Of a DNA stretch of 64,000 nt, positions 56,830 through 64,000 are shown piece after piece. The notes under the pieces are model-generated. The model saw only the letters and a program-made list of their open reading frames with translations, made no database searches and was not told the DNA's origin. Each line of letters starts with the position of its first letter. Positions within the stretch are counted from its first letter, which is position 1. Origin of the DNA: Nostoc sp. CENA543 (GTDB lineage Bacteria > Cyanobacteriota > Cyanobacteriia > Cyanobacteriales > Nostocaceae); the NCBI RefSeq assembly GCF_002896875.1, contig NZ_CP023278.1, positions 4,968,501 to 5,032,500 of the forward strand, read 5' to 3'. Made by a program: the position numbers and the translations under genes.

Positions 56830-56931
56830 TACAGCTTTTTCATTACGTTAATTGAATTGCGATCGGCAAGCTTTAACTGCCGTATCAATCATCACACAGC
56901 CAAAGTAGTATTTCTCCAGACAACAACCACT

Positions 56932-57375
56932 ATGAATCAACAGATTACAAGCATCAACAACCCCAACAAAGCAGTTAATCCTCAGCAATTTGACAAAGTA
57001 GTTGAAGCAATTTTGGCTGGGAAATATTCTTGGGCTTGTGTTTTAATGCTGCGGATTGCAGGATATAACCCTTTACATTACATTCCCTACCGCACCTATA
57101 ATCGACTACTCAAAGAAAACTCGGAATCTGGGAGAGTGCAACAATCACATCCAAGTAATGCCACAATGGGTAAATCATCTGAGACGCATACTTCCTCTAG
57201 TTGTTTAAGTAAGATTAAAGACTTGGCATACTTTGAAGTAGTGGGTAAGCAAAAAACAGAGATTCGTGGCGGTAGTATAGATGCGTGGTTTGCTCAGAAA
57301 ATTTACGAGACTCAATCCATACAATTTGATTCAGAATCCCTAAATGCTGGTGAACTGAATCTGATAAATAATTAG
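56932..57375 (+). CDS. hetP: HetP, heterocyst differentiation regulator
   Basis: A protein of about 147 residues. The conserved HetP domain covers about 13-55: [45 protein letters not shown]. The rest is a variable, polar tail with a second conserved block ([30 protein letters not shown]). HetP acts downstream of HetR to commit cells to heterocyst fate. I take the ATG at 56932 ([10 protein letters not shown]); the open frame starts 25 codons earlier without a ribosome-binding site. Position after hetC and the HetR palindrome confirm the call. A terminator follows at 57478. Confidence 0.93.
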
Positions 57376-58188: not shown

Positions 58189-58917
58189 ATGAACGAACCA
58201 AATCCCATAGTGATTACACCAGAGGAAGTGGTGAACTTACTCAAAAGAGAGATGACTTTTAAGGAAGTTTATCAAAAAATTCTGTTCAATAAAGTGATTT
58301 GGCAAGTTGCCCAAGAACGTGGGATTATCGTCACAGACGAAGAAATCGAAGCTGAAGCCAACCGCCAGCGACGGGAGAAGCATTTAGAGAAAGCCGCCGA
58401 TACATTAGCATGGTTGCAGGAAGAAGTCGTGACGACAGATGACTGGGAACTGGGAATTCGCGATCGCCTGTTATCGGAAAAATTAGCTAATGTATTATTT
58501 GCTGCCGAAGTAGAAGATTTTTTCTATAAAAACAAACTAGACTTTGAGCAAGTTATTTACTATCAAATCATTGTCGATTCTGAAAAACTTGCCCAAGAAA
58601 TTTATTATCAAATCGAAGATAGTGAAATTAGCTTTTATGAAGCTGCTCATCTTTATAATATAGATATCTCGCGCAGGAGAAAGTGCGGTTACGAGGGTCA
58701 AGTTTATCGCTTTAACCTGCTAAAAGATATTGCTAAAGTTGTATTCACATCTCAACCCCAACAGTTAATCGGCCCTGTAAAAACTGAACAAGGTTATCAC
58801 CTACTCATGGTAGAAGAATTTATCCCGGCTGAGTTAACACCCCAAAAGTATCAAGAAATTCTTCATCATCTATTTCATAAATGGTTATTAGTAGAAAGTC
58901 AAAAACAGAATCAATGA
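58189..58917 (+). CDS. Parvulin-type peptidyl-prolyl isomerase (SurA-like), cytoplasmic
   Basis: A 242-residue protein with a SurA-N-like helical domain (about 10-100: MTFKEVYQKILFNKVIWQVAQERGIIVTDEEIEAEANRQRRE) and a parvulin-like domain (about 110-215: FEQVIYYQIIVDSEKLAQEIYYQI, then FTSQPQQLIGPVKTEQGYHLLMVEE). There is no signal peptide. The catalytic region is somewhat degenerate, so chaperone rather than isomerase activity is possible. In cyanobacteria such genes often accompany peptidase-type ABC exporters of the HetC kind, and hetC lies 2.7 kb upstream. A link to exporter cargo folding is inferred. Confidence 0.88.
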   Translation: MNEPNPIVITPEEVVNLLKREMTFKEVYQKILFNKVIWQVAQERGIIVTDEEIEAEANRQRREKHLEKAADTLAWLQEEVVTTDDWELGIRDRLLSEKLANVLFAAEVEDFFYKNKLDFEQVIYYQIIVDSEKLAQEIYYQIEDSEISFYEAAHLYNIDISRRRKCGYEGQVYRFNLLKDIAKVVFTSQPQQLIGPVKTEQGYHLLMVEEFIPAELTPQKYQEILHHLFHKWLLVESQKQNQ

Positions 58918-59040
58918 CAATGGGCATAGGGCATAGGGCATAGAAGAGGAATTGGAGCAGGGTGCAGGGGGGAGAAGAATTTCCCCCCTGCCCCCCTGCC
59001 TCCTTTCTCCCAGCCCCAATCCCCAAAAACTACATAAGGT
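58918..59040. repeat. Spacer repeats 'gggcatagggcatagg' and 'ggtgcagggggg / cccccctgcccccctg'
   Basis: Tandem GGGCATA units directly after the PPIase stop, then a purine-rich block and its complement that can pair as a hairpin (58960-59000). Confidence 0.7.
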
Positions 59041-59106
59041 CAACCAGCCTAGAATTAAGAACAGATGTCAGGCGATACTGCTATTGATGGTTAAGTTGAC
59101 ATACTT

Positions 59107-60495
59107 ATGGGTGTGACATCGCGATATTGGCAACTGGTGAAAATTGATGGAGTGGGACGGCGACAGGTTCAAGAAATTACGCCAGCTAAGGTGTTTTTTG
59201 CTGACTTGTTTCCGGCGATCGCACATAATGCACATAATGACCTTCCCGATGCAGAAATTCAACGGGAATTGCTACAAGTGGCGCAGGATGCACCCATTGA
59301 TAGATGCTTATTAGCACAGCGTTGTCTGTTGTGCTTTATTTCTTGGCAAATCGAACAGGCTTGCTTGCAGATAGCAGAAAAGTTTGGAACTAATCATGGG
59401 TTTAGTAGTGTTGATTTATTACCCTATGTCTTAGATGATGATGGTTCTATTCAACCTAGTGATGACTATCAATGTTCTGCACGTAAGATTTTGCAAACTT
59501 TTGACCCCCAACAAAGCAGCCTAACAACCTGGACAACTACAAGAGTAAAACATGACGCTGGACTGAATCAATTTTTGCTAGAGTGCGGGGTATATTTGGT
59601 GAGTGATTGGGCAATTTTGAATGATACTCGTCCTCATCAAATAGAACGTATTTTTACAGAGTTTTACTCGTTAACACCTGATGAAATTCAACAAGCACAA
59701 CAACTTTTAGACAGCTATCACGCTGTTTACCGTACTGCACGTTTACAACAACGGGCGCAGGGAAAAGGCGGTAAATGTAGTGTACCAACAACACAACAAC
59801 TCCAACAAATTGCCACTCTCGTAGCAAGTAAAACTGGTCAAACTTGCAAAAGTGAAATTGTGTTGACCAAATTGCAACAACTCGCTGACAGATTGCGACA
59901 ATATCGGATTTATATTCGTGGTGGGTATTTACCGACGGAATCTTTAGATACTCTCCTGCTAAATAACTATATTGATACTCCAAAATTGTTAGATAATGAA
60001 GATGAACAATTAGATTTTTTACAGTTATATCGACCACAGTTTTTAAGTTGTTTAGAACAGGCGTTAGCTGTGGTGACACAATCACGAGTCGATAAATTAC
60101 AAAGAAAAAAAAGTGAGAAAGATAAACAGTTTTTAACAGCACTCCAGTTATTTCACTGTCAAAATTTATCCATGACAGAGATTGCTGCTAGGGTAGGATT
60201 ACGCGCCCAAGATGCTGTCACACGCCTTTTAAAACTCAAAGAATTTCGTAATGATGTTAGTCAGCAGCTTTTAATGATGTTATGCGATCGCGTGCTGGAA
60301 CTAGCGAAAAAATATTCCCAAATAGAAAGCATGACAACTTTAGAACAGCAAATTAAAATAGCTTTGAATGAACAAGTTGAACTTGTGATTAGAGAAGCAG
60401 AAATCCAAGCACAAACTGCAAGACCTTATATTAAAACCAGTTTATTTAATGATAAACTCTGCCGCTATCTAGATATCATCAATGAGGTGAAATGA
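59107..60495 (+). CDS. Uncharacterised HTH (sigma-like) protein of the DUF1822/CHAT-CHASE2 cluster
   Basis: A 462-residue soluble helical protein. Residues about 355-380 (NLSMTEIAARVGLRAQDAVTRLLKL) form a clear helix-turn-helix resembling sigma-70 region 4 or other transcriptional activators. Earlier parts (CLLCFISWQIEQACLQIAEKFGTNHGFSSVDLLPYVLDDDG, then TTWTTTRVKHDAGLNQFLLECG) resemble the helical layout of diverged sigma-like proteins, but the core region 2 motif is not evident. Its stop overlaps the start of the DUF1822 gene by four bases. I infer a DNA- or RNA-polymerase-binding regulator controlled by the membrane CHAT-CHASE2 protein. Confidence 0.75.
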   Translation: MGVTSRYWQLVKIDGVGRRQVQEITPAKVFFADLFPAIAHNAHNDLPDAEIQRELLQVAQDAPIDRCLLAQRCLLCFISWQIEQACLQIAEKFGTNHGFSSVDLLPYVLDDDGSIQPSDDYQCSARKILQTFDPQQSSLTTWTTTRVKHDAGLNQFLLECGVYLVSDWAILNDTRPHQIERIFTEFYSLTPDEIQQAQQLLDSYHAVYRTARLQQRAQGKGGKCSVPTTQQLQQIATLVASKTGQTCKSEIVLTKLQQLADRLRQYRIYIRGGYLPTESLDTLLLNNYIDTPKLLDNEDEQLDFLQLYRPQFLSCLEQALAVVTQSRVDKLQRKKSEKDKQFLTALQLFHCQNLSMTEIAARVGLRAQDAVTRLLKLKEFRNDVSQQLLMMLCDRVLELAKKYSQIESMTTLEQQIKIALNEQVELVIREAEIQAQTARPYIKTSLFNDKLCRYLDIINEVK

Positions 60496-61841
60496 ATAAC
60501 TTAACTAATAATAATTCTCCGAAGCGGCTAGAATTTGAGACTTTACCAACAGCCGCCATAAATCTGAATACTGCACAAATTACTCAGGCTGTAGAAATCA
60601 GTAATCAAATTAATCATTCGTCGCAACAATGGCAAGTATATCTTCAGGCTTTAGCGTTAATTGCCTTTGAGTCATGGCTAGATGAACGCTCAGATTCCCT
60701 GAAGATTAACATTGAAAATTGCACCCTTTTGCATCCAGGATTAGCAACTGCGATCGCGGCTGTTGCCAATTTACAAATAGGTGAATTTAAACTGTGTTTA
60801 CTCACAACTACTAGTCTCACTGATAATCAAGTTATTTTACCGAGAGCAGTTGTAGATCTACCAGAGTATATTGCTCATTTTTATGTTTTACTGGAAGTCT
60901 TAGAAGAACAAGATGCTGTCACTATCTCTAGTTATTTAACATATTCAGAATTAAGAGATAATTGTTTAAAAACAACATTAAAACCGACATCCGACTGGAA
61001 TTATCATATTCCTATCAATTGGTTTGTATCTGAACCAGACCGTTTATTACTATACTTACATTGTTTAGAACCAGCAGCAATTACCTTACCCCAGCCAAAC
61101 AATAAAAATACTCAGGTGTTAGCCAAAATTCAAAATGAATTATTGAATCTATTACCTCAATTACAGTCACCAGAAATTGAACTGTGGCAAATATTAACTT
61201 GGGAACAAGGGATGGCTGTCATAGCTCATCCAGAACTACTCACTTGGGTGTATAATTTACCCCAAAAACCACATCATGATTCATCACAAAACAGTTTAAA
61301 AGACTTACTCAAATTATTAACCCAACCTGCCTTAAATGTAGGTCGTTGGCTGTGGGATGAATTAGATGAATTAGCACAAGAATTTGCTTGGCAATTATTA
61401 CCGGTTGTCACCCCCGCCGCCGCTATGAGGAGTCCGACAGAAGAATTTACAGCAATTGTCACTCAACTCCAACAGCGAAATATTGAAATTCCCATGCAAG
61501 CGCGGGGTGCATATCAAGATTTTCTCTTAACAGGAATTCCTCTGCGTTTATATGCTGTAGCTTGGCATTTGTTATCAGAATCAGACCCGCATTTATGGAC
61601 ATTGTTGTTAGTCTTGGGTACAGCTTCTCATCAAACTTTACCTGTACACTTAAAGTTAAGAGTAAGTGACCAAACAGGGGTGTTAGTAGAAAAGGGAATA
61701 AATCCACAGCAGGGAGAAGCTTATTTATTTACCCGTGTAGTTGGTAATTGGGATGAAAAGTTTTTAGTAACTGTGAGTTTAATAGATGGGGTAGAGGTGA
61801 ATTTACCTCCATTTACATTCTGTCCCCAGAAAGTCATTTAG
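60492..61841 (+). CDS. DUF1822 family protein
   Basis: A 449-residue cyanobacterial DUF1822 protein. The N-terminus (FETLPTAAINLNTAQITQAVEISNQINHSSQQWQVYLQALALIAFESWLDE) is the family signature. The middle is helical, and the C-terminal 80 residues (LKLRVSDQTGVLVEKGINPQQGEAYLFTRVVGNWDEKFLVTVSLIDG) look beta-rich, like a small adaptor domain. There is no signal peptide or membrane segment. No function is known. It overlaps the HTH gene by four bases (ATGA) and is followed after 75 bases by the CHAT-CHASE2 gene, so the three form one operon. Confidence 0.88.
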   Translation: MNNLTNNNSPKRLEFETLPTAAINLNTAQITQAVEISNQINHSSQQWQVYLQALALIAFESWLDERSDSLKINIENCTLLHPGLATAIAAVANLQIGEFKLCLLTTTSLTDNQVILPRAVVDLPEYIAHFYVLLEVLEEQDAVTISSYLTYSELRDNCLKTTLKPTSDWNYHIPINWFVSEPDRLLLYLHCLEPAAITLPQPNNKNTQVLAKIQNELLNLLPQLQSPEIELWQILTWEQGMAVIAHPELLTWVYNLPQKPHHDSSQNSLKDLLKLLTQPALNVGRWLWDELDELAQEFAWQLLPVVTPAAAMRSPTEEFTAIVTQLQQRNIEIPMQARGAYQDFLLTGIPLRLYAVAWHLLSESDPHLWTLLLVLGTASHQTLPVHLKLRVSDQTGVLVEKGINPQQGEAYLFTRVVGNWDEKFLVTVSLIDGVEVNLPPFTFCPQKVI

Positions 61842-61916
61842 GTGTGCTGGTTACAGTTTTGGTAACAAAATATTACTTAAATTTTGAATTGATTCATATT
61901 CTGATATTGGCAGATC

Positions 61917-64000
61917 ATGATGATGGCAATGACGTTTTATTTAAAAATTCAACAATTTGATCAATCATGTGCTTTTGAATTATCCTGGGGGCAATGTCAA
62001 CAAATTGTAGTGACACTTGCCTATCCTAATGAACTGAAGTTAAAATATCAAGAATGGCAGCGTATTTATCTGCGATTTTATAATAATGGAATGCGAGGTA
62101 GAGTAGAAGATGTTGGTAGTTTAGTTGCACCTCCTGTTGACTGGAATTCACAATTAATTCAAGCAGAAGCGCAACTTTTAGCAGCATTTCATCACTGGTT
62201 ACGCAGCGCAGAATTGTATGAAATTCGGGCAACTATCGCCCAGGCTACTACTAATATTGATGTTTTTCTGACTTGTCATCCTTTAGATTTAGCACGTTTA
62301 CCTTGGGAAGTCTGGGAATTTGGCGCAGAGTTTGGGAAATCGTCTACAAGGAAGATGAGAATTGTTCGCACAGCTTTAAATCGCAAGGAAGCAGTTAATC
62401 ATAGGCGACGCAATGGTAAGGCTAAGATTTTGGTGATTTTAGGGGATGAAACAGGTTTAAATTTTCAAGCTGAAAAAAAAGCTATAGCCGCTTTAGGTTC
62501 TTTAGTAGAAACAACTTTTATTGGTTGGCAACCAGCAGTTAATATTAATGAATTAAAAACTCAAATTGTGCAGGAGATCGCAGCAGATTCAGGTTGGGAC
62601 ATTCTCTTATTTCTGGGACACAGTAATGAAAGTAGTTTAACTGGTGGAGAAATTGCGATCGCTCCCCACGTTGCTTTATCAATTAGTGAAATAGAACAAT
62701 CATTAATTACCGCTAAATCTAAAGGATTACAGTTTGCCATTTTCAATTCTTGTCAGGGGTTAAGCATTGCCAATAAATTAATTGATTTAGGTTTAAGTCA
62801 AGTAGCAGTAATGCGTGAACCCATCCATAATGATGTAGCTAAAGATTTTTTAACACAATTTATACAGGCTTTAGCTAACTATCAAGATGTGCAGGAAGCA
62901 TTAATCACTGCGGCTCAATATTTGCAAATAGAAAAACATCTCACTTATCCCAGTGCTTATTTAATTCCTTCTTTATTCCGTTATCCTGAAAGTGATTTAT
63001 TTCGCCTACAACCCTCTGGAATTCGGCAATTAATTCAAAGTTTGCAACCAAGTCGCCAAGAAGCGATCGCCCTAGCAATTATCTTATTTATTAGTCTACT
63101 ATTACCAGTACAAAATTTTTTATTACAAAGACGTTTATTAGTACAAGCTATTTATCGCCAATTAACTAATCAGGTAGAAACCACCAATAATCAGCCACCA
63201 GTGCTTTTAGTACAGATTGATGAAGAGTCTATCCGCAAAGCCAAAATCTCTAACCCAAAACCATTAGATCGCAAATATCTAGCCAGTCTCGTTGACAAAT
63301 TAGTGGCTAATCAAGCAAAGGTAGTTGGTATTGATTATCTCTTAGATCGACACCAAGAACAAAGCGATCGCTTCCTCGCTAACTCCATTCAAACTGCGGT
63401 TTCTCAACCCCAACCTACATGGTTTGTCTTTGCAGCTACTTCCAACACAAAAGGCGAATGGCTACAGACACTACCTAATATTGCTAGCCTCAACTGGAGT
63501 TTACAAGGGGAGATTGAATTTCTGCCTGGGTATATGCAACTATTTGCTATAGATGATTTACAAGCACAACCTTGGTACTTTTCGAGTTTATTAACACTGT
63601 CATACCAATTACAAAAAATACCCAATTCACCACAACCAAAATTAGATAGCCAAATTGACTTTTTACAACAGATTAATATGTTTTTAAAAGAAGGTAATAA
63701 AAGTCATTTAACTATTTTGTCATCACCAAGTTCCCATCTACAACCAGTCACCGCATTGAGTTATTGGCTAGAACAAATGTGGATGCACCCAATTGTTGAT
63801 TTCTCGCTTCCACCTCAGCAAATATATCAAACAATCTCCGCTTGGCAATTACTCGAAAATCCAGGTATAGTCTCGAATTTATCACAGCAAATTGTCATAA
63901 TTGTACCTGGTGGGTATGAAGATGCTGGAATTAATTTCAACGGCGAAGATAATTTGCATGGCACAAATTTACCTTTAGCTGTTAAATATTGGCGACAACA
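61917..64000 (+). CDS. CHAT protease-CHASE2 membrane sensor protein, 3' end beyond window
   Basis: At least 694 residues are visible from ATG 61917; further in-frame ATGs at 61920, 61923 and 61929 are alternatives. Residues about 160-365 form a CHAT caspase-like domain with an intact dyad: H235 in ILLFLGHSNE and C279 in FAIFNSCQG. A membrane helix follows at about 383-403 (AIALAIILFISLLLPVQNFLL). From about 425 a CHASE2 sensor domain starts (PVLLVQIDEESIRKAK, VVGIDYLLDRH), which should lie in the periplasm and continue past the edge. The layout allows an outside signal to control an inside protease. The target is unknown; the HTH and DUF1822 proteins of the same operon are candidates. Confidence 0.92.
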   Translation, partial: MMMAMTFYLKIQQFDQSCAFELSWGQCQQIVVTLAYPNELKLKYQEWQRIYLRFYNNGMRGRVEDVGSLVAPPVDWNSQLIQAEAQLLAAFHHWLRSAELYEIRATIAQATTNIDVFLTCHPLDLARLPWEVWEFGAEFGKSSTRKMRIVRTALNRKEAVNHRRRNGKAKILVILGDETGLNFQAEKKAIAALGSLVETTFIGWQPAVNINELKTQIVQEIAADSGWDILLFLGHSNESSLTGGEIAIAPHVALSISEIEQSLITAKSKGLQFAIFNSCQGLSIANKLIDLGLSQVAVMREPIHNDVAKDFLTQFIQALANYQDVQEALITAAQYLQIEKHLTYPSAYLIPSLFRYPESDLFRLQPSGIRQLIQSLQPSRQEAIALAIILFISLLLPVQNFLLQRRLLVQAIYRQLTNQVETTNNQPPVLLVQIDEESIRKAKISNPKPLDRKYLASLVDKLVANQAKVVGIDYLLDRHQEQSDRFLANSIQTAVSQPQPTWFVFAATSNTKGEWLQTLPNIASLNWSLQGEIEFLPGYMQLFAIDDLQAQPWYFSSLLTLSYQLQKIPNSPQPKLDSQIDFLQQINMFLKEGNKSHLTILSSPSSHLQPVTALSYWLEQMWMHPIVDFSLPPQQIYQTISAWQLLENPGIVSNLSQQIVIIVPGGYEDAGINFNGEDNLHGTNLPLAVKYWRQ

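Follow-up and report, generated by a model that had tools for sequence, protein, structure and literature searches.

Caspase-like proteases encoded next to sigma factors have been described before. In the available parts of their survey, Kaur, Iyer, Burroughs and Aravind (2021, PMC8195603) place EACC2-caspase genes with variable C-termini, CHASE2 among them, beside genes for extracytoplasmic function (ECF) sigma factors and DUF1822 proteins; a transcriptional outcome is given in outline, and the caspase-like domain is proposed to cleave itself upon a signal. In the CRISPR-associated CASP system, following the accessible text of the reports, experiments support cleavage of Csx30, an inhibitor of the sigma factor CASP-sigma, by the TPR-CHAT protease Csx29: Csx30 binds and blocks CASP-sigma, its full length is needed for this, cleavage relieves the block, and the locus itself carries three CASP-sigma motifs (PMC10028731). 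According to another report, cleavage leaves the N-terminal part of Csx30 attached to RpoE (PMC9729208), so that release of a sigma factor may require more steps. Here, we analysed 64,000 nt of Nostoc sp. CENA543 (NZ_CP023278.1, positions 4,968,501-5,032,500; hereafter the window), together with the region beyond it (locus L009). The window contains an operon encoding a divergent sigma factor (SIG), a DUF1822 protein and a membrane-bound CHAT-CHASE2 protease, and SIG is preceded by a promoter-like element whose copies are linked to genomes with SIG and to the starts of other genes. Cyanobacteria have many caspase-like proteins, to our knowledge mostly without known targets. The papers found treat the present gene set as a prediction and define no output for it; the element and its candidate targets make it testable.

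The genes are tightly packed on the + strand, as are all features given below: SIG at 59107-60495 (462 amino acids, aa), the DUF1822 protein at 60492-61841 (449 aa; PF08852, E 8.5e-57), which overlaps SIG by 4 bases, and, after a gap of 75 bases (61842-61916), the CHAT-CHASE2 gene, which runs from 61917 to the window end at 64000 and on to 64343 (808 aa in full). This is the arrangement, and for the second gene the family, given in an earlier note on this DNA, which also advised reading on beyond 64000. There, a fourth gene for a 221-aa DUF928-like protein overlaps the end of the CHAT-CHASE2 gene by 8 bases; the note's three genes stand, and the set is extended by this fourth gene outside the window and, in some relatives, by a TPR-CHAT gene inside the operon. 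Co-occurrence of the families, set beforehand as a test, was assessed in two partly overlapping collections, which are not independent since they share some genomes (e.g. L054 and L147). The survey of the order was searched by SIG alone, the other genes being unused, found SIG in 42 of 148 genomes and yielded 56 fetched loci; the named loci are the best 80 of 162 found. DUF1822 lies directly downstream of SIG in 76/80 named loci (1 cut off, 3 without) and in 49/56 loci of the order survey (2 cut off, 5 without), and the note's expectation of co-occurrence was not refuted. An EACC2-CHAT gene follows downstream in 41/56 (5 loci cut off) and in 53/80, the other 27 having less than 9 kb left, and a DUF928-like gene comes after CHAT in 23/41 (2 cut off) and 42/53 (6 cut off), respectively, with a median overlap of 8 bases. 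The operon is real and conserved, and its co-occurrence goes beyond chance. The note had further regarded the set as one without known function, a view superseded by the EACC2-caspase/ECF sigma/DUF1822 set already described in the available text of PMC8195603.

The element, AACTACATAAG-N10-CTAGAATTA, occupies positions 59028-59057, 79 bases 5' of the SIG start. When 11 SIG upstream regions including that of the window were aligned, it formed the one conserved block, with little conservation preceding it, and 25 upstream regions gave the consensus AAMTGCATAAS-N10-CNAGANNTA. Counting mismatches over 14 core positions, we found the element at ≤2 mismatches in 69 of 103 distinct window-type SIG upstream regions, a figure that is partly circular because 25 of these regions served to derive the motif; the spacer measured 10 bases in 62 of the 69. 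Controls, for which 109 upstream regions including duplicates were used, gave 4/327 matches when shuffled and 1/109 when reversed. Across 137 SIG loci, 80 matches compare with a mean of 2.0 and a maximum of 9 for 100 permuted patterns. A scan for the sigma-70 consensus found 27 sites against 21.3 expected (sd 4.1), not clearly above shuffled sequences. Computationally, 59028-59057 is a candidate autoregulated SIG promoter. A second SIG subfamily, of the type found at locus L014 of the same genome, is clearly related to the window type (E 3.2e-80), and its 22 upstream regions lack the window-type element at ≤2 mismatches. Several of them show AACTGCATAAG followed by RCAYCTA, the second part ending at the same place; the two subfamilies have the first half of the element in common and differ in the second half, with the same end point. 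This second form at ≤2 mismatches gave 17 matches, spread over 14 of the 146 genomes (13 of these 14 have SIG), and its reversed pattern gave 3. One such element in the genome of Nostoc sp. CENA543 (G000:C1:6661640-6661669, L246) stands 92 bases 5' of a 479-aa gene that by eye looks alpha-amylase-like; the SIG gene of L014 is about 9 kb away.

Where else does the element occur? At ≤1 mismatch, 146 genomes contained 56 matches: the 30 that carry window-type SIG account for 51 and the remaining 116 for 5. For the same split, the reversed pattern gave 4 and 9. At least one match was present in 14/30 genomes with window-type SIG compared to 5/116 of the rest (Fisher p = 7.6e-8, which ignores phylogeny, the genomes being related; G065 and G147, for instance, belong to the same genus), or in 14/41 compared to 5/105 if all SIG types are counted (p = 1.2e-5). 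SIG's own promoter accounts for 6 of the 51 matches, and the other 45 thus provide the independent support. We then considered placement, requiring an open reading frame (ORF) no shorter than 80 codons and a copy outside any other ORF on that strand. Among non-self copies in SIG genomes, 41/50 sit 35-160 bases 5' of an ORF, as against 328/3810 random positions (8.6%) drawn from SIG loci, not whole genomes; 52 stretches were fetched, and the 50 copies include six of G147 and leave out one of G097. In genomes without SIG, 1/5 matches lies at promoter distance. In one genome without detected SIG (G081, L336), an element stands 80 bases 5' of a gene whose large product begins in a signal-like way; SIG may have diverged or been lost there. 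The element and its copies elsewhere much strengthen the transcriptional branch of the interpretation given in the earlier note.

Of the 48 downstream proteins, 42 were scanned; the six removed were a duplicate, the SIG protein (L330) and four encoded in genomes that lack SIG. Three further ones (L286, L294 and one of L329) were skipped for N or stops. Family matches were TPR (12), CHAT (7) and ABC ATPase (3), and among ten proteins viewed one by one, two are C14 caspases; an S8 subtilase, a DUF1194 protein and a sulfatase also occur there, and two matched no family. CHAT, caspase or subtilase proteins make up 10/42, and beside SIG loci more RTX-TPR and subtilase-like proteins, assigned by eye, stand behind the element. 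From these matches, the candidate regulon appears to be a mixture in which exported proteases stand out most. In Nostoc sp. CENA543 itself, the first form of the pattern, with a variable gap, gave no match, the 11-base first half alone occurred at 6 places (control: 7), and three mismatches gave 28 matches (control: 15). Seventeen of these 28 sites were looked at, including SIG's own and L246; two others at promoter distance, L234 (107 bases 5' of a 474-aa ORF) and L244 (86 bases 5' of a 95-aa ORF), are not claimed as targets.

SIG itself matched no Pfam family above the cut-off (HTH_40 at E 0.1) and TIGR02937 only weakly (residues 129-377, E 0.034), a model reached at E ≤ 1 by 21 of 67 SIG relatives (best 5.7e-4). 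By hhalign, the SIG family aligns collinearly over 310 columns (98.9%, E 1.9e-17) with the ECF sigma family of the L010 type, whose member at L010 hits TIGR02937 at 5.2e-28; for four pairs of unrelated profiles, E was 0.28-0.65. A region-2-like stretch (59476-59625, residues ~124-173), aligned to the ECF sigma family, contains many invariant residues, and a region-4-like helix-turn-helix (60136-60237, residues ~344-377) comprises model helices 336-351, 356-363 and 368-375; an insert separates the two parts, and a long N-terminal part is present. The AlphaFold2 model has a predicted local distance difference test score (pLDDT) of 90, with the linker at 279-295 as the sole stretch below 50. Foldseek placed sigma chains of T. 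thermophilus on top of the PDB matches at a non-significant E of 0.11 and hence counts as support only, and the SIG profile gave nothing convincing against the sequences of solved structures (best E 0.031). Judged by its profile, SIG is a divergent sigma factor related to ECF sigma factors and predicted to bind RNA polymerase, in agreement with the sigma-like label of the earlier note. Its cysteines, C73 in 65 of 67 relatives and residues 76, 86, 224, 351 and 452 in 67/67, possibly have a metal or redox role. At L053 (10868-13735) and L056 (9588-12476), SIG follows a nucleotide-binding-like part, presumably AAA_35-like, in stretches that contain no DUF1822 or CHAT match; this is perhaps another way to control SIG. 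A fusion of SIG with DUF1822 was considered and dropped, as these long SIG frames bear a different N-terminal part; DUF1822 frames listed for 59 genomes reach 507 aa at most.

The model of the DUF1822 protein (pLDDT 88) begins with an alpha/beta part, continues with helices and closes with a series of strands at the C-terminus. The strands are preceded by a variable, low-confidence loop (61404-61445, residues 305-318; pLDDT <50 at 308-312) that ends in a conserved Met/Leu-Arg-Ser: R313 is kept in 54/65 and S314 in 55/65 relatives, Arg occupies the R313 column in 90/129 of a wider DUF1822 set, and most copies in the same genome have, by eye, Arg-Ser or Arg-Asn near the loop edge. A cleavage site near Met/Leu-Arg-Ser is speculative, and a structural role is equally possible; we speak of a candidate because Csx29 cuts Csx30 after Leu although eukaryotic separase cuts after Arg, as stated in the available text of PMC9729208. 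Fold searches returned PDIP38, ApaG and SoxY-like matches (best 6e-4) and so do not tell the function, and the DUF1822 profile found nothing convincing among the sequences of solved structures (best E 0.6). We regard DUF1822 as a candidate anti-sigma factor and CHAT substrate.

The third protein combines, as predicted earlier, an intact CHAT domain (62460-62936, residues 182-340, E 4.5e-8) with CHASE2 (2.3e-14 for the part in the window; residues 392-738 in the full protein). A conserved N-terminal region, putatively EACC2-like, precedes CHAT, with invariant residues such as L22, Y44 and W47. His235 (62619-62621) and Cys279 (62751-62753) are kept in 47/47 aligned proteins, where S236, N277 and S278 are likewise invariant; a CHAT family match is found in 45 of the 47, the window protein included. 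Invariant catalytic residues and a low ratio of nonsynonymous to synonymous substitution rates (dN/dS 0.14) against Nostoc sp. CMAA1605 suggest that the protease is active and under selection. The CHAT profile gave nothing convincing against the sequences of solved structures (best E 0.019). CHASE2 follows a first transmembrane segment (63066-63122, residues 384-402, by hydropathy), and three more hydrophobic stretches (723-741, 757-775 and 780-800) are encoded outside the window. All 47 CHAT proteins (46 complete ones from named loci plus that of the window; L115 was left out) have CHASE2, compared to 11 of 19 without a DUF928 neighbour, the other 8 having nSTAND1; the DUF928-like neighbour thus goes with the CHASE2 form among the proteins scanned. 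The 19 derive from 21 such proteins, fragments L068 and L141 being omitted, and the 23 DUF928-adjacent CHAT loci of the order survey were outside the scanned set. Elsewhere the C-terminus varies, with WD40 repeats in L014 and other parts, seen by eye, in L013, L015 and L016. The DUF928-like protein has an N-terminal hydrophobic segment and a DUF928 match below the cut-off (4.1e-4). The neighbourhood of CHASE2 and DUF928, and the acid-stress response of one DUF928 protein, are already noted in the available text of PMC5587647.

Taken together, we lean slightly towards the operon being a membrane-to-promoter relay. CHASE2, predicted to lie outside the cytoplasmic membrane, would sense an envelope or outside signal, perhaps with the exported DUF928-like protein, and turn on the cytoplasmic CHAT protease on its N-terminal side. 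CHAT would then cut DUF1822, an anti-sigma-like protein co-produced with SIG, for which the flexible Met/Leu-Arg-Ser loop is a possible site, and the freed SIG would join RNA polymerase and read promoters of the AAMTGCATAAS-N10-CNAGANNTA type. It would thereby act back positively on its own operon and, in some relatives, also on further genes, including those for secreted TPR-CHAT, caspase and subtilase proteins. The element predicts the responding genes and supplies a reporter. The earlier note had likewise read the genes as a path from an outside stimulus through the protease to transcription; the operon, the co-occurrence, the sigma identity and a layout that fits protease-released transcription bear this out in part, with cleavage and CHASE2 gating as the parts that we infer. 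Only tentatively, and with more doubt than belief, do we extend this to a self-amplifying cascade between surface and genome, in which the membrane CHAT protein would free a sigma factor whose regulon in several relatives includes more secreted caspase-like proteases (TPR-CHAT, C14 caspases) and subtilases, and which would run in several parallel copies per genome, each SIG subfamily sharing the first promoter half and having its own second half.

Several observations weigh against the relay. The element is missing at ≤2 mismatches from 34/103 SIG upstream regions, 15/327 random pieces drawn from the SIG loci matched at this threshold (these may be real copies), and 16/30 genomes with window-type SIG have no copy at ≤1 mismatch; in Nostoc sp. 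CENA543, only SIG's own promoter matches at this stringency. Roughly three in four of the 42 scanned proteins behind the element are neither CHAT, caspase nor subtilase. DUF1822 is missing in 8/136 SIG loci (3 more are cut off), and 10/56 have no CHAT gene within 9 kb downstream, two of these (L049, L083) having one upstream. Csx30 is absent among the 50 listed of 1192 DUF1822 fold matches (E ≤ 10) and among the sequence matches. Csx29 cuts after Leu and has the Arg-reading residue of separase replaced, so that Arg would not be the rule in general (available text of PMC9729208).

How else could these genes work together? In the published proposal, of which part is available (PMC8195603), the caspase-like domain cuts itself on a signal and thereby turns the system on; DUF1822 would then be an adaptor and the sigma factor coupled otherwise. 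The varying C-termini and partners (CHASE2, nSTAND1, WD40 in L014, others by eye) agree with this, whereas SIG and DUF1822 form the most constant pair, even where no CHAT gene is near, and therefore suit a sigma/anti-sigma pair; we consider autocleavage unlikely. The same systems are listed there among apoptosis and conflict systems, and STAND versions exist, so CHAT might be a killing effector of a defence or cell-death module with transcription as a secondary effect. CHASE2, however, is described in the accessible literature as an outside receptor, and exported proteins and transporters are among those encoded behind the element; we hold such a module to be very improbable.

Other alternatives concern SIG. 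Were it an ordinary DNA-binding regulator with TGCATAA-N10-CNAGA as its operator, the lack of a Pfam sigma domain at the cut-off, the TIGR02937 matches at E ≤ 1 in just 21/67 relatives and the weak Foldseek result (E 0.11) would be expected; the collinear ECF profile match (310 columns, E 1.9e-17), the two-block form with a 10-base spacer (62/69) at promoter distance, and a second half that differs between SIG subfamilies while the first is kept argue for a sigma factor and render an ordinary regulator improbable. The idea that CHAT cuts SIG in the disordered linker 279-295 between its halves, turning the response off or on, draws on this linker being the only part of the model with pLDDT <50. 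The linker is mostly variable and gapped in the family, whereas the DUF1822 loop has a conserved Arg-Ser at its edge, and CASP cuts the inhibitor, not the sigma factor (available text of PMC9729208 and PMC10028731); cleavage of SIG is to us the least probable of the explanations considered.

The 7.2 Mb genome contains eight DUF1822 genes, six of which (L009, L012-L016) have an EACC2-CHAT type gene nearby. At L011, a TPR-CHAT gene (CHAT 3.8e-58) is close to DUF1822; at L010, the EACC2-CHAT model found no match nearby, and TPR-CHAT was not read out at this locus. Sigma-like genes stand beside DUF1822 at L010 (TIGR02937 5.2e-28), L011 (51% identity to the L010 protein) and L015 (Sigma70_r2 2.1e-9), the L016 protein resembles that of L015 by eye, and the SIG type is present at L009 and L014. 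The upstream proteins of L012 and L013 are similar by eye only, with no family above the cut-off. In other genomes, SIG occurs at L054/L147, L060 and L150 without a DUF1822 or CHAT match in the 9-11 kb read downstream; L054 and L147 still keep the promoter element.

The nearest named relative found is Nostoc sp. CMAA1605 (L115; SIG identity 95%), against which pairwise dN/dS is 0.11 for SIG, 0.22 for DUF1822, 0.14 for CHAT (residue 32 onward) and 0.22 for the DUF928-like protein. Between its DUF1822 and CHAT genes lies an 884-aa TPR-CHAT gene with a signal-like start, in the place where the window has just 75 bases, the flanks being 94% and 93% identical. A TPR-CHAT gene takes this position in 13/137 loci and lies further downstream on the same strand in 19 of 137; N-terminal hydrophobicity suggests export for most of the proteins encoded between DUF1822 and CHAT. 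Just 5' of the operon are a peptidyl-prolyl isomerase gene (58189-58917) and a C39-type peptide exporter (C39-peptidase ABC transporter, L009 2-1969). A small protein without Pfam match (56857-57375) contains a stretch that resembles HetP by the motif YIPYRTY.RL.KEN; among the loci searched, it is found beside the operon elsewhere only in L115.

The gene set was thus already predicted in print; the present analysis adds the promoter element, its copies before other genes in relatives, a pair of accessory genes and a candidate site of cleavage. A literature search, judged by titles and mostly outside subscription papers, gave no report of a promoter or regulon for the set. The EACC2 systems, in the available text of PMC8195603, agree with it by their description, which names a constant N-terminal domain, a caspase-like domain, a variable C-terminus and ECF sigma and DUF1822 neighbours; the operon shows an intact His/Cys pair, a variable C-terminal sensor and these neighbours, and has a putative counterpart of the N-terminal domain. 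This part of the account differs in proposing autocleavage and is without promoter, targets, TPR-CHAT, DUF928-like gene or cut site. Metacaspase-CHASE2 proteins likewise have an N-terminal caspase-like domain and four membrane helices around CHASE2, and some metacaspase operons include sigma factors, but the protease is a metacaspase, not CHAT, and the available text gives no promoter or substrate (PMC3501461). Regulated proteolysis of RseA/RpoE and RsiW, as outlined in the accessible part of PMC10028731, also joins an envelope signal, a protease, an anti-sigma factor and an ECF sigma factor; there DegS cuts the transmembrane part of the anti-sigma factor, while in the present operon the membrane sensor is part of the protease, whose substrate is a putative one. 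With CASP/Craspase (available text of PMC10028731 and PMC9729208), the operon shares the logic of a CHAT protease, a sigma factor and a third protein, there inhibitor and substrate in one, and sigma motifs in its own locus; its input is RNA via Cas7-11, whereas the present set has a membrane sensor and a putative cleavage step, and DUF1822 bears no likeness to Csx30 among the matches listed. By this analogy, the relay is likely a membrane version of CASP logic. If cleavage proves true, CHAT-gated release of sigma factors would be a general strategy, used by RNA-guided proteases of CRISPR systems and by membrane sensors of cyanobacteria alike.

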